Part shown: in pieces, positions 22,282 to 27,426 of the stretch
Layout of the letters: each line of letters begins with the position of its first letter
How positions within the stretch are numbered: the stretch's first letter is position 1
Source: Bacteroidales bacterium
GTDB taxonomy: Bacteria; Bacteroidota; Bacteroidia; Bacteroidales; UBA932
Direction: 5' to 3'
Assembly (NCBI GenBank): GCA_017561665.1
Contig: JAFZBQ010000013.1
Coordinates: 1 to 36,561 of the forward strand
Length of the DNA: 36,561 nt
The notes under the pieces: model-generated
Told to the model about the DNA's origin: nothing
The model's input: the letters and a program-made list of their open reading frames with translations, nothing else
Database searches by the model: none
Program-made: the position numbers and the translations under genes

Positions 22282-24297
22282 ATGGATGCCGGCAAAACGA
22301 GATACGTGGAGGTGATAGTACCGCTAAAATTCTGCGGCGGCATCATCCATTACTCCGTTCCGGGAGTCATAACGGAAGAAATTGCGACCGGCAGTTGGGT
22401 CGTGGTCACCGTGATGGGCCGGCGCTATCTTGCGGTGGTCCGCACCGCCGGCGGTCCGCTTCCCGAAGGTCTGTCTCCCCAGAAGGTTCTGCCGATAGAG
22501 AAGGTCGCCCCCCTGAAACCGCTCCCGCCGGTTCAGATTGAGCTCTGGCAGATGATTGCCGATTACTATATGTGCTCCATCGGCGAGGTCTTCAAGAGCG
22601 CCTACCCTTCTGCATTTTTCCGCCAGAGCGAGAAAAGACAGATTGCTTCAAAGGCACAGGGCACACCCGCCGTCCTCGAAGAAAAGACCCTGTCGGCAGA
22701 GCAGCAGCAGTCATTGGAGCAGATACAGGCTTTTTACGCATCCGGCAAACGGACGGTACTCCTTTCCGGCGTAACCTCCAGCGGAAAGACGGAGATTTAC
22801 ATCAAACTGGCGCAGAAATACCTCTCGCAGGGGCGCAGCGTCCTTTATCTGGTGCCGGAAATCGCCATGTCGCGCCAGCTGGAGCAGCGGCTGAAGAGCG
22901 CTTTAGCAGACAAGGTTCTGGTGTTCCACTCCAAGCAGACCTTCCCCACCCGCAAGAAAGTCTTCGACAAATTAATTGCCGGCGAGGGCAACTATCTGGT
23001 GCTGGGAACCCGCAGCGCCCTCTTTCTGCCGATAGTCAATCTCGGTTTCATTATCGTTGACGAAGAACACGACCAGTCATACAAGCAAACCGACCCGGCA
23101 CCCCGTTACAACGGTCGCGACGCCGCCCTGATGATGGCCGCCAGGCTGGGCGTCAACACCCTGCTTGGCAGCGCAACTCCTTCTATGGAATCACTCTACA
23201 ACGTGTCGGCGGGCAAATATGGGCTGGCACAACTGCTGCACAAATATTTCGGCGCAGAAGATGCCCCGGTCACCGTTATCGATATGGCAAAGGTCTATGC
23301 CATGCACAATGCCCGCGGCTCCTTCTCCATGCAGCTGGTCAACCTGATTGCCGCCCGCCTGAAAGCCGGCGAGCAGGTGATGGTATTCCGTTCCAGACGC
23401 TCCTACAGCTCGTTTTTGCAATGCGACAGCTGCGGCGAGACGCTCCGTTGCCCCCGCTGCAACGTGAGCCTGACTTTCCACAAATACAACAACAGCGTCT
23501 CGTGCCACTATTGCGGATGGCACGCCCCATTTGATCCAACCTGCCACAAATGCGGCAAGGGGACTTTCACCGCCAAGGGAGCCGGCACGGAAAGGCTGGC
23601 AGAAGAGCTTCAGGAACTCTTTCCCGAGGCCCGAATCGCCCGTTTTGACGCCGAAACCGCCGCGACCCGCACGGAGGAGAAAAAGATACTGGGCGACTTC
23701 GCCGCCGGTAACACAGACATCCTGGTCGGTACTCAGATGCTCTCCAAGGGCTTTGACTTTGAAAACCTCGCACTGGTGGCGGTTATCAGCGCCGACTCGA
23801 TACTTTCGCTTCAGGATTTCCGGGCCGACGAAAAGGCCCTGCACCTGCTCACCCAGCTCCGCGGCCGCGTCGGCAGGCGCTCCGGCACCGGGCAGATGGT
23901 AATTCAGGCCTTCGGGACCGACCATCCCGTGCTTGCCGCCCTCAAGGGCGACTGCAGCGACTACGGGCGCCAGATGTTGGAGCAGCGCAAACTGTTCGGC
24001 TTCCCGCCGTATGTCAGGATGATTCAGCTCACCGTCCGCAACGCCTCTGCCGAAGAGCTTCGGCACACTTGCAACCTGCTTTCCAGAGCCCTGAAGAATG
24101 CCGGATTGAAGGATATTTCCGACCCCATAGCGCCCGCTGTGGACCGTGTCGCCGGAATGTACATCCGCATCATCTGGATCAAGTTGCCGCGCACCGCGTC
24201 GGGCCAGTCAAAGAAGGCTGCGATTGCCGCCGCCGTAGAGCAGGTCCGCCTGTCAGCATCCTCCTCAGAAATCATAATCGACGTAGATCCGCTCTGA
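22282..24297 (+). CDS. priA: Primosomal protein N' (replication restart helicase PriA)
   Basis: A 671-residue superfamily 2 helicase that reloads the replisome at stalled forks. An N-terminal fork-binding domain (about residues 1-110) is followed by Walker A SGVTSSGKTEIYI, the DEEHDQSYKQ helicase motif, and the zinc-binding cysteines of CDSCGETLRCPRC and CHYCGW...CHKCG. Helicase motifs VGTQMLSKGFDFENL and QLRGRVGRRSG come later. I chose the ATG at 22282 (MDAGKTRYVEVIVPL), because an upstream TTG at 22246 lies in T-rich leader sequence. Bacteroidota PriA proteins are often longer, so this one is compact. Its stop shares one base with the activase start (TGATG). Confidence 0.94.
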   Translation: MDAGKTRYVEVIVPLKFCGGIIHYSVPGVITEEIATGSWVVVTVMGRRYLAVVRTAGGPLPEGLSPQKVLPIEKVAPLKPLPPVQIELWQMIADYYMCSIGEVFKSAYPSAFFRQSEKRQIASKAQGTPAVLEEKTLSAEQQQSLEQIQAFYASGKRTVLLSGVTSSGKTEIYIKLAQKYLSQGRSVLYLVPEIAMSRQLEQRLKSALADKVLVFHSKQTFPTRKKVFDKLIAGEGNYLVLGTRSALFLPIVNLGFIIVDEEHDQSYKQTDPAPRYNGRDAALMMAARLGVNTLLGSATPSMESLYNVSAGKYGLAQLLHKYFGAEDAPVTVIDMAKVYAMHNARGSFSMQLVNLIAARLKAGEQVMVFRSRRSYSSFLQCDSCGETLRCPRCNVSLTFHKYNNSVSCHYCGWHAPFDPTCHKCGKGTFTAKGAGTERLAEELQELFPEARIARFDAETAATRTEEKKILGDFAAGNTDILVGTQMLSKGFDFENLALVAVISADSILSLQDFRADEKALHLLTQLRGRVGRRSGTGQMVIQAFGTDHPVLAALKGDCSDYGRQMLEQRKLFGFPPYVRMIQLTVRNASAEELRHTCNLLSRALKNAGLKDISDPIAPAVDRVAGMYIRIIWIKLPRTASGQSKKAAIAAAVEQVRLSASSSEIIIDVDPL

Positions 24298-25157
24298 TGA
24301 CAGGCACAATCTTCGACATACAGCATTTCTGTACCGGAGACGGGCCGGGAATCAGGACAACGGTGTTCCTGAAAGGCTGCACCCTGCACTGCCCCTGGTG
24401 CCACAATCCCGAATCGCAATCTTTCCGGCCGGAGATTCTGCTCAATTCCAGCCTCTGCATAAGCTGCGGCTCCTGCGACGGCGTATGCCCTGCCGGAGAT
24501 GCCAAGACCACGCTGTCCACGGCTGAATCGCGTGCTGCCTGCGGCTCCTGCACCGCCTGCACCGATGTCTGCCCTTCCGGCTGCCTGGAGATAGCCGGTA
24601 AAAGGTATGATGTTGAAGAGGTGATGGCCGAAATGCTTCAGGACGAAGCTTATTACCGCCATTCCGGCGGCGGGATGACCCTTTCCGGAGGGGAACCGAT
24701 GGCACAGCCGGCGTTCTCGAAAGCGCTTTTGGAGGCCGCGAAGGCCGCCGGACTGCACACTGCGATAGAGACCTCCGGCGACGGACGGAAAGAAGACTTT
24801 CTTGCAGCGGCGCCGTATGCCGACCTGTGGCTCTGGGATATAAAGATGATGGACTCCGGGCTCTACCGTGAACTGACCGGCGGCGACCTGGACAAAATGC
24901 TGGCAAATCTGGCGGCGGTTGCAGAAGCTGGCGCCAATATACGTTTCAGAGTTTTGTACGTGCCCGATTTTCACGACCGTGATGGCATTGCAGAAGCCAC
25001 CGCAGCCCTGCTCAAATCATATCCTCAATACGAATCGGAGGTTATCCCCTATCACCTTTTGGGGAACGCCAAACGCGAAAAACTCGGCCTGCCTGAAATG
25101 CGGTTCCGCGAGCCGGCCACAGAAGAAATCAGCAGATTTGCTGCGTTCTTTGGATAA
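24297..25157 (+). CDS. Glycyl-radical enzyme activating enzyme (radical SAM, PflA-type)
   Basis: A 286-residue radical SAM enzyme. CxxxCxxC is at Cys28, Cys32 and Cys35, for the SAM-binding cluster. Two further four-cysteine ferredoxin clusters follow at Cys54/57/60/64 and Cys82/85/88/92, an insert typical of activases for non-PFL glycyl radical enzymes. GGGMTLSGGEP binds SAM, and DIKMMD and YHLLGNAK are the usual later motifs. It abstracts a hydrogen from a glycine in a partner enzyme using SAM and reduced ferredoxin. The obvious partner is the convergent gene at 25129-27396, whose 3' end it overlaps by 29 bases. I start it at the ATG at 24297; the frame is open upstream only as shadow of priA. 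It shares one base with priA, so translation is probably coupled. Confidence 0.93.
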   Translation: MTGTIFDIQHFCTGDGPGIRTTVFLKGCTLHCPWCHNPESQSFRPEILLNSSLCISCGSCDGVCPAGDAKTTLSTAESRAACGSCTACTDVCPSGCLEIAGKRYDVEEVMAEMLQDEAYYRHSGGGMTLSGGEPMAQPAFSKALLEAAKAAGLHTAIETSGDGRKEDFLAAAPYADLWLWDIKMMDSGLYRELTGGDLDKMLANLAAVAEAGANIRFRVLYVPDFHDRDGIAEATAALLKSYPQYESEVIPYHLLGNAKREKLGLPEMRFREPATEEISRFAAFFG

Positions 25158-27396
25158 TCATATCCTGCCACTCCTTGCACAATGTGTGGAAGCGGGCGGA
25201 CCAGCCTGAGACACGCACCGGCAGGTTGGGGTACTTCTCCGGATGACGCTGAGCATCTATCAGGGTGGCGGTATCTACCACATCCACATGCATATAGAAT
25301 CCGCGCTTCTCGCGGAATGTCTTCATAAGGCCCACCAGAGCCTTGATTCCGTTCTCGCCTTTGACCGAAGAGGGCAATATCTTCAATTCCAGGGTGGCGC
25401 CGCTTGGAGAATTGATGAAATCCAGCTTGCAGTATGAATTGAGCGCCGCTGTCGGCCCCTTGCGGTCGCTGCCGGGAGTCGGCGAGCAGTTGGTGGCCAG
25501 GATGTCGCCGATGCGGCTTCCCTCCGGCGTTGCGCGGCGCATCAGACGCCAGTCAACCTCGCGGCCGAAAGTGGAAATGCCGCACGGACGCTTAACGCCG
25601 TCGCGCTCCTTGACCTCGCCGACGATGGCGGTGTAATCGTCAAAGACGCGGCACATCAACTCATCGGCCTCGGTGCTGTCGTTACCGTAGAACTCGAAGC
25701 GGTTCTGAATAGTGCGGCGCAAGCCTTCGGAACCTTCCCAGTTACTGCGGAGTATGCCCAGAAACTCGTCCAGGCTAAGGAACTTGTCCTCATAGACCAG
25801 TTTCTTGAGCACCAGCAAGCTGTTGGCAGTATCGGAAACGCCACCGTAGTGGATGCCCTGCATAGTGTACTTGGGGCCGCGGTTCCAGTAGTTGCGCCCC
25901 TTCTCCAGACAGCCCTCCGCAAAGATGCAAGCCATTGTGTTGGGGAGCCAGTCGGGATCTTTCAGTTCTCTGTCGAATGCAGCCTGAAGGCCGTCAATAT
26001 CTTTATGCAGATTGCTCTTGAAGGCGGCGTAGAGCGACTCGAAGTCGGGATAATCGACATTAGGGTCCTGTCCGTCGTATAGATGCAGCGTGCGGCCCAA
26101 AACCTCAACCATATCGGTCGGGTGATAGGTAAAGAAGGTCTTTCCGGGGATGATGGCCTCCCAGCAGCCGTCGTTGGTGAACTCTCGCGCCTCGTCCAGC
26201 GGATAGCCGAATTTAACGAGAGCATCTATAACGACATTTTCACTGTAAACAGACACTATGCCGCCGCCGAAACGCTGAACCTCGGCTACGCGGCGGAACA
26301 ACTTCTCCGGAGTCTTGTCGCCCAGGCGCACCGCCACCGGCCAGTCGCTTATGTGCAGTTCCTCCACTATGTCCAGCACGAGATACGTCACCTCGTTGGT
26401 CACCTCGCGGCCATTCTTGTCGATGCCGCCGAGAATTATGTTCTGATAGAACTGCGCATCGCCGCTGGAGATGTGATAACCGATCCATTCGGTGCCCTTG
26501 ATCCAGAAATGGGCAAGGATTTCGCGGGCTTCGTCAAGTGTCAGGATGCCCTTGCGAAGATCTTCCTTCAAGTAAGGTCCCAGCATCTTGTCTATACGTC
26601 CTACGCCGGACCAGTTGCCCATCAGGCGGTTGAAGCAATACATACTCCAAAGCGACTGCACCGCCTCGCGGAAAGAACGCGGAGCGCGGTCGGGAACCTG
26701 CTCCAGAGTATCTATAATATCCTGATAGAACTTCTTGTCTTCTTTGTCGACAGCGTCGTTTTTCATCTGCTTCAGCAGCTCGATATTGCGTTTCTGCCAG
26801 ATATCGGCGGCATCCAGGGTAATGAGCGCAGCCTCATTGATATCTCGACCTCTATCGTCCAGAGTACCGGAGGTGAGCCGCTCACGAATCTCTTTGCGGA
26901 TGCCGTCGTAGCCGATTTTGAGGATGCGGTCGAACTGGAAGGTGGTGTGATTGACGCCCCATTCGTTCAGGACTGGAACCCTGGATTCGGCCCCCTCTAT
27001 CAATGTTGCCGAGCCGACAATCAATTCACCCGGAAGGATGCGGAGCGGAACGTTTTTGGCCACACTCATTGCCGCAGCGGCGAACCGTCTTTGCGGAGTG
27101 AGGTCTGGATCCAGTTCGCAAGGCCAGTCGACACGGCCCATAGTCTTGCCAATTTCGCCCGAAAGGCCCATCCAGGCCAGTTCGTGCGTACGATCGCACA
27201 GTCGGCGCGGAATTTCCGGCTGCCACGGGCTGTGCCAGCTCTCGTAAAGGTTGCGCTTATCCTCCTTTGGCAGGGACGATGCCTCCGCAGCGCCGGCCGC
27301 TGTCGGTTTCAAACCAAGCATCAAGCCTCCCAGCCCAAGGGAAGAGACTTTCAGGAAGTCCTTGCGGGACATTTTTGCCGAAGATTTTCCGCTCAT
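25129..27396 (-). CDS. Glycyl radical enzyme with Tat-like N-terminal signal (PFL/dehydratase superfamily)
   Basis: A 755-residue glycyl radical enzyme. The radical site is Gly731 in VRVSGWSARF, 24 residues from the end. The thiyl cysteine is Cys411 in NDGCWE, with Glu413 two residues later. C-x-E is seen in dehydratases, C-N lyases and arylacetate decarboxylases, whereas pyruvate formate-lyase has Cys-Cys, so this is probably not a PFL. The substrate is not readable from the sequence. The first 40 residues look like an export signal: SRKDFLK at residues 10-16, a Gly/Leu-rich hydrophobic stretch (about 18-29), and AGAAEA. This resembles a Tat signal but has RK in place of RR. The activase is encoded convergently, overlapping the last 29 bases. 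Upstream is thrC, with its own promoter box in between. Confidence 0.9.
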   Translation of the reverse strand: MSGKSSAKMSRKDFLKVSSLGLGGLMLGLKPTAAGAAEASSLPKEDKRNLYESWHSPWQPEIPRRLCDRTHELAWMGLSGEIGKTMGRVDWPCELDPDLTPQRRFAAAAMSVAKNVPLRILPGELIVGSATLIEGAESRVPVLNEWGVNHTTFQFDRILKIGYDGIRKEIRERLTSGTLDDRGRDINEAALITLDAADIWQKRNIELLKQMKNDAVDKEDKKFYQDIIDTLEQVPDRAPRSFREAVQSLWSMYCFNRLMGNWSGVGRIDKMLGPYLKEDLRKGILTLDEAREILAHFWIKGTEWIGYHISSGDAQFYQNIILGGIDKNGREVTNEVTYLVLDIVEELHISDWPVAVRLGDKTPEKLFRRVAEVQRFGGGIVSVYSENVVIDALVKFGYPLDEAREFTNDGCWEAIIPGKTFFTYHPTDMVEVLGRTLHLYDGQDPNVDYPDFESLYAAFKSNLHKDIDGLQAAFDRELKDPDWLPNTMACIFAEGCLEKGRNYWNRGPKYTMQGIHYGGVSDTANSLLVLKKLVYEDKFLSLDEFLGILRSNWEGSEGLRRTIQNRFEFYGNDSTEADELMCRVFDDYTAIVGEVKERDGVKRPCGISTFGREVDWRLMRRATPEGSRIGDILATNCSPTPGSDRKGPTAALNSYCKLDFINSPSGATLELKILPSSVKGENGIKALVGLMKTFREKRGFYMHVDVVDTATLIDAQRHPEKYPNLPVRVSGWSARFHTLCKEWQDMIIQRTQQIC

Positions 27397-27418: not shown

Positions 27419-27426
27419 CAAATATA
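27419..27426 (-). promoter_or_regulatory. -7 promoter box (TAnnTTTG) for the glycyl radical enzyme
   Basis: Minus-strand TATATTTG lies in the 60-base gap after thrC and ends 22 bases before the ATG. It suggests the enzyme gene can be transcribed separately from thrB-thrC. No clear -33 TTTG was found. Confidence 0.55.

Follow-up and report, generated by a model that had tools for sequence, protein, structure and literature searches.

We describe a glycyl radical enzyme (GRE) that begins with a leader resembling a signal for the twin-arginine translocation (Tat) pathway. It is encoded on the minus strand, at 25129..27396 including the stop codon, of a 36,561-nt stretch of DNA from a Bacteroidales bacterium (contig JAFZBQ010000013.1 of assembly GCA_017561665.1, contig C12 in our numbering), the whole of which is called the window here. 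The host genome is 2.2 Mb in size and 89.9% complete, and the closest named relatives are Bacteroidales metagenome-assembled genomes (MAGs), many of them sampled from rumen. GREs are regarded as cytosolic, with a radical that is installed by an S-adenosylmethionine (SAM) enzyme and destroyed by oxygen. The explanation we favour, at a probability of about one half, is that this GRE would be charged in the cytosol and afterwards leave it by the Tat route, on a weakened signal that keeps a single arginine.

The gene starts with ATG at 27396, ends with the stop codon at 25131-25129 and encodes 755 aa; Pfam places a PFL-like domain at residues 146-612 (E 1e-89) and a Gly_radical domain at residues 634-736 (E 2.9e-24). 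In an alignment of 35 GREs, the cysteine and glutamate of Cys411-Trp412-Glu413 (26158..26166, minus strand) were invariant and Gly731 (25204..25206, minus strand) was nearly so, the single exception being the row for locus L018, which is truncated at that position. We take Cys411 to be the catalytic thiyl site, Glu413 the acid/base glutamate and Gly731 the radical-bearing glycine. The motifs GNWSGxGR[IF]D, SGDAQxYQN, NDGCWE and VR[VI]xGWSARF are common, with small variations, to family members with and without the leader, and the leader-bearing enzyme is thus not a dead copy. With both domains, the aligned Cys and Gly, and an adjacent dedicated radical SAM activase, the window gene is by its sequence an intact GRE, for which radical formation and activity are predicted. 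Translation, Pfam and the alignment therefore bear out the coordinates and the intact active site (Cys411, Glu413, Gly731) given in a first-pass annotation made from the DNA letters.

Comparison with the PDB matched 36 distinct sequences (best E 1.8e-79), and comparison with NCBIfam reached no cut-off or equivalog, the best score being 328.5 bits against 678.2 required. GREs of the PFL2 / glycerol dehydratase type (1r8w, 5i2a and HypD 6vxc) share with the window enzyme its domains, its Cys-x-Glu and Gly loops and the kind of activase; unlike them, it has an export-type leader, and GCWE instead of GCVE. At GHS and WHD of 1r8w, which are presumably substrate-binding residues, the phmmer alignment gives W-S-G and Y-H-P in the window GRE, a correspondence of aligned sequences only. 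A function as diol dehydratase was considered and not accepted, since the aligned substrate-binding residues differ, despite the presence of GH106, GH95 and iron alcohol dehydrogenase genes near some relatives.

The leader, MSGKSSAKMSRKDFLKVSSLGLGGLMLGLKPTAAGAAEA, comprises residues 1-39 (27280..27396, minus strand), as delimited by an alignment of 23 leaders. Within it, on the same strand, the Tat-like motif SRKDFLK (residues 10-16, 27349..27369), with Lys replacing the second Arg, precedes the Gly/Leu-rich hydrophobic core VSSLGLGGLMLGL (residues 17-29, 27310..27348), whose hydropathy is 1.68; behind the core come Lys30 and the A-x-A triplets AGA and AEA, which end at residues 36 and 39. A consecutive twin arginine is lacking (RK), and the rest of S-R-R-x-F-L-K, a moderate core, an A-x-A site and c-region charge are all present. 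Since no in-frame ATG, GTG or TTG occurs between codons 29 and 76, and the conserved enzyme body begins at residue 65, a complete body can be made only if the leader is translated with it.

In order to follow the leader through the family, we used 50 loci obtained by scanning 84,980 species genomes with six short peptide patterns, a procedure that may miss members. A leader was readable at 22 loci (a further one, L027, has it in another frame), 5 loci lacked the N-terminus, and 22 had a readable N-terminus without leader; the 22 readable leaders and that of the window make up the 23 used here. One carrier is a cultured Alistipes, with L010 in its complete genome. All 23 clade members with a readable N-terminus, 22 from Bacteroidota and 1 from Armatimonadota, carry the leader, which confirms and extends to the whole clade the Tat-like start (SRKDFLK, Gly/Leu core, A-x-A, RK for RR) noticed in the first-pass annotation. 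That annotation had also named close homologues lacking the leader as a sign against it; there are none within the clade, and leaderless relatives do exist outside it. These come mainly from Lentisphaerota, and also from Verrucomicrobiota, Poribacteria, Fibrobacterota and Clostridia; they align to the window protein only from residue 27-95 (mostly 56-70), and none of the 22 showed a [ST]Rx[DE]FLK-like motif when searched by script. As a control, the Tat-like motif R[RKAS]x[FLM][LIMF] was sought in the first 120 residues of the longest open frame of 23 GRE paralogues (31-34% identical), the best for which loci were obtained within the taxonomic family of the window; none had it, a few frames being cut at the N-terminus. 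The family must be rare, because a homology search at E 1e-100 through the order (393 genomes) and the phylum (395 genomes) returned only the window copy. At L027:3900-4010, the GRE frame breaks, relative to L022, just behind an intact leader, which may be a sequencing error.

The leader motif and core are under constraint comparable to that on the catalytic body. In four groups of sequences, the motif had a dN/dS of 0.02-0.16 and the core one of 0.03-0.19, compared to 0.06-0.12 in the enzyme body, the core being somewhat looser than the body in two of the four; these are pairwise Nei-Gojobori counts with synonymous change near saturation in several cells, and the ratios are accordingly rough. 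Safer evidence comes from the contrast in amino-acid identity, which was 88-94% for the motif, 76-93% for the core and 74-91% for the body, compared to 33-70% for the c-region and linker and 41-72% for the n-region. In a tree of 44 sequences (L037, L044, L046, the loci without N-terminus and two of four outgroup rows were left out), the 22 leader-bearing rows formed one fork (99/94), with the Armatimonadota member L019 outermost and a leaderless Poribacteria sequence next outside. On this tree, a single change accounts for the presence of the leader, and no fewer than seven are needed for the third motif residue. Because the motif is the canonical SRREFLK in L019 and TRRDFFK in L018, the leader looks Tat-derived, and the history is read most simply as a single gain of a Tat leader followed by loss of the second arginine, probably more than once.

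At the third motif position, the 23 leaders have A (12), K (6), R (2, in L018 and L019), S (1), G (1) and E (1), while the first Arg and the Phe are invariant and A-x-A-type sites follow the core in every case. Thus, of the RR/RK pair whose conservation the first-pass annotation proposed to check, the first arginine held and the second did not, Ala being a more frequent replacement than Lys, and the non-RR motif is a family trait and not a quirk of one gene. When the 2.2-Mb genome was searched at DNA level for [ST]Rx[DE]FLK, with a few other first residues also admitted, 4 sites matched, compared to 2 for a reversed control, which is above chance. The other three sites all lie inside open frames, two of them valyl-tRNA synthetase-like and peptidase-like (names assigned by eye) and the third with RRVEFLK at residue 114. 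Across the 23 related genomes with the leader, a DNA pattern gave 84 matches. The [ST]R-type among them number 67 and comprise 26 RR (including two RR-type GREs), 19 non-RR GREs, 12 [ST]REEFLK and 10 others. All ten of the last group were read, and not one turned out to be an N-terminal leader; of the [ST]REEFLK matches, one was read and is internal, and seven others lie within about 4 kb of tatC, near which valS is found in the window genome. Under the DNA pattern used, then, RR is the normal form in these genomes, and the GRE is the only protein with a putative non-RR leader.

Genes for the Tat machinery are at hand: tatA and tatC are adjacent on contig C92 of the window genome, so that the lack of tat genes, raised in the first-pass annotation as grounds for doubt, does not apply. 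Nine N-terminal RR leaders were detected in this genome with PF10518 and TIGR01409, models that favour RR and so do not count non-RR leaders. Of the seven proteins that were run against Pfam, three are Gfo/Idh/MocA oxidoreductases and one is an aldo/keto reductase that also has a 4Fe-4S domain; the other three are an enzyme of the enolase superfamily, a xylose isomerase-like TIM barrel and a metallophosphoesterase. With nine RR leaders, several of them on cofactor-dependent enzymes, export of folded proteins is evidently in use in this organism. Among the 23 related genomes with the leader, mostly incomplete MAGs, tatC was found in 18. In the 18 TatC proteins compared, from the window genome and leader-bearing relatives (loci L001 and L108-L126), the residue aligned with E. 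coli Glu15 was D, A, V or E, with no clear match to leader type, and the Glu103 equivalent was kept.

The activase gene, at 24297..25157 on the plus strand, encodes a leaderless radical SAM protein that has two additional 4Fe-4S motifs and scored 296.7 bits against TIGR02494 (cut-off 174.35). It meets the GRE gene tail to tail in an overlap of 29 nt (25129..25157), and its ATG overlaps the stop codon of an upstream priA-like gene. An activase is present in all 23 leader genomes (in pieces in that of L014), and none of the 22 readable activase N-termini has a leader. Installation of the radical must accordingly be cytosolic.

The pathway we favour would begin in the cytosol, where the GRE would fold and the leaderless activase encoded next to it would install the glycyl radical. 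TatAC would then move the folded, charged enzyme to the other side of the inner membrane, guided by a signal that keeps only the first arginine, and signal peptidase would cut at an A-x-A site. The radical of a GRE is restored in each turnover, with no need of SAM afterwards, and in an anoxic periplasm the enzyme could go on turning over in this way; its substrate there would probably be a small sugar-derived molecule, beside exported glycan enzymes. The export itself, the order of activation before export, the cleavage and the substrate class are inferred. The Gfo/Idh/MocA and aldo/keto reductase proteins predicted to leave the same cell by Tat have a motif, core and A-x-A layout like that of the GRE leader, and they too would have to fold with their cofactors in the cytosol first. 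In contrast to their RR leaders and the others of that genome, most members of the GRE family are without the second Arg, and the part of the "cofactor" would be played by a radical on the protein backbone. Sulfatases are likewise modified in the cytosol by a radical SAM enzyme prior to export, with the difference that their product is a stable formylglycine, whereas the GRE would carry a radical.

The genes around the GRE and its activase in the window are housekeeping genes, namely threonine synthase (by Pfam) and priA and homoserine kinase (by eye). A promoter-like -7 box, TATATTTG, lies at 27419..27426 on the minus strand, 23-30 nt upstream of the ATG, and resembles what we take to be the Bacteroidota element with consensus TAnnTTTG; only some of 17 relatives inspected have such a box at a similar position. 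Between GRE and activase, L011 and L013 encode a weakly GH42-like protein whose start is of the Sec or lipoprotein type, and pieces of GH106 were found near the GRE in L012 and L027, along with GH95 in L027. In two Alistipes (L198 in G992; L200/L201 in G982), the activase is far from the GRE. There it is flanked by a protein of ~950 aa with a Sec-type start and by one of 563-601 aa, for which the copies scanned gave no Pfam or NCBIfam match. Exported-looking partners thus adjoin the activase or the GRE in L011, L013 and the two Alistipes, and the remaining scanned neighbours of leader-bearing GREs are unrelated housekeeping genes. Ten genes near leaderless members were scanned, and several of them encode glycoside hydrolases or AraC/LacI regulators. 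The leaderless branch L025-L052 belongs to the same GCWE-type GRE family and often stands beside glycoside hydrolase or AraC/LacI genes. A glycan-linked substrate of the GRE is at most a fair guess.

Several observations weigh against Tat export of the charged enzyme. The second Arg is absent from 21 of the 23 leaders, and PF10518 and TIGR01409, run on the window genome up to E 10, did not return the GRE leader among their matches. For SufI of E. coli, a growth assay showed that export ceased once D, E, H, N or Q had replaced the second Arg (PMC5539426). The same study states that a more hydrophobic core restores export and that a single Arg can then suffice for Tat (PMC5539426). Such compensation was not supported here, since the GRE cores averaged 1.66 (n=21) compared to 1.50 for 7 RR leaders of this genome (of the nine) and 1.63 for 7 of relatives, which include the two RR-type GREs (p=0.18). 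tatC was not found in five of the 23 leader genomes, and it is equally common in genomes with leaderless members (16 of 21). Finally, an iron alcohol dehydrogenase without leader adjoins the GRE in three Rikenellaceae (L022, L023 and L027; that of L022 is YqhD-like, below cut-off), which fits a product released in the cytosol. According to a 2019 review, a single Arg-to-Lys change merely slows transport in most bacteria (PMC6708511). The same review calls TtrB of tetrathionate reductase the only native Tat cargo known to have a KR motif (PMC6708511); TtrB lacks the first Arg, whereas the GRE leaders always have the first and differ in the second (K, A, S, G or E).

A bolder form of Tat export is that the whole clade would be extracytoplasmic, that its radical would stay intact through Tat and that gut anaerobes would use it in their periplasm for radical chemistry on glycan-derived substrates, the second Arg having been shed so that slow export awaits activation. 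We put this forward tentatively and consider it rather doubtful.

A tether or a dual location is the chief alternative and deserves some weight, even if we think it unlikely. The leader would engage Tat or the inner membrane, and the weak motif would hold most of the GRE on the cytosolic side, placed, in one version, beside a transporter or membrane partner. This could explain why evolution dropped the second Arg but held on to the first, to the Phe and to the core, and why there were seven or more changes at the third position, as though a signal of full Tat strength were unnecessary; the leaderless alcohol dehydrogenases of L022, L023 and L027 are also in its favour. A pure anchor, however, would not need the A-x-A-type sites that all 23 leaders retain in spite of c-region drift.

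Some other cytosolic role of the leader, for example as a docking segment for the activase, seems distinctly improbable, even with the leader conserved and an activase in all 23 genomes. Leaderless GREs have activases nearby too (L028, L034, L035, L036, L038, L039, L041 and L048), and the leader has the layout of a signal peptide, with canonical Tat motifs in L018 and L019. We give similarly low credence to a cytosolic enzyme with a decaying Tat relic of no present function, the other option of the first-pass annotation. The second Arg is indeed gone in 21 of 23 leaders, but the idea of a decayed signal is contradicted by a motif and core constrained like the enzyme body between freely drifting n-region and linker, and by retention in 23 of 23 clade members.

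Export of the unfolded GRE by Sec is very unlikely. Sec and Tat signals have a common layout, and the core is leucine-rich; yet the active site is conserved, and outside the cell there would be neither activase, which is leaderless, nor SAM for charging. The Tat-derived motif and the Lys in the c-region of many leaders also disfavour Sec, the effect of such a charge being documented in PMC5539426.

Choline and propanediol GREs carry encapsulation peptides for bacterial microcompartments, which the conserved segment with variable linker resembles. Targeting to a microcompartment was nevertheless rejected as hardly credible, because BMC-domain shell proteins, the scope of the search (other shell families and encapsulins lay outside it), were found in none of 24 genomes (the window genome and 23 related ones) with positive controls in E. 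coli and Synechococcus, and because the core lacks amphipathic character (mean moment 0.12 for 9 GRE leaders vs 0.08 for 8 RR Tat leaders).

Of the two options left by the first-pass annotation, export of an activated enzyme thus appears the better supported. A literature search found no work linking GREs with Tat, a signal peptide or the periplasm, most subscription journals being outside its coverage. If Tat export is correct, the enzyme would count as an extracytoplasmic GRE, and its whole family would depart naturally from the RR rule. Radical chemistry would then extend to the periplasm of anaerobes, and Tat would be able to move a protein with a live radical. The 21 natural single-arginine signals of this family would, in that case, allow the need for the twin-arginine rule to be gauged on natural material.

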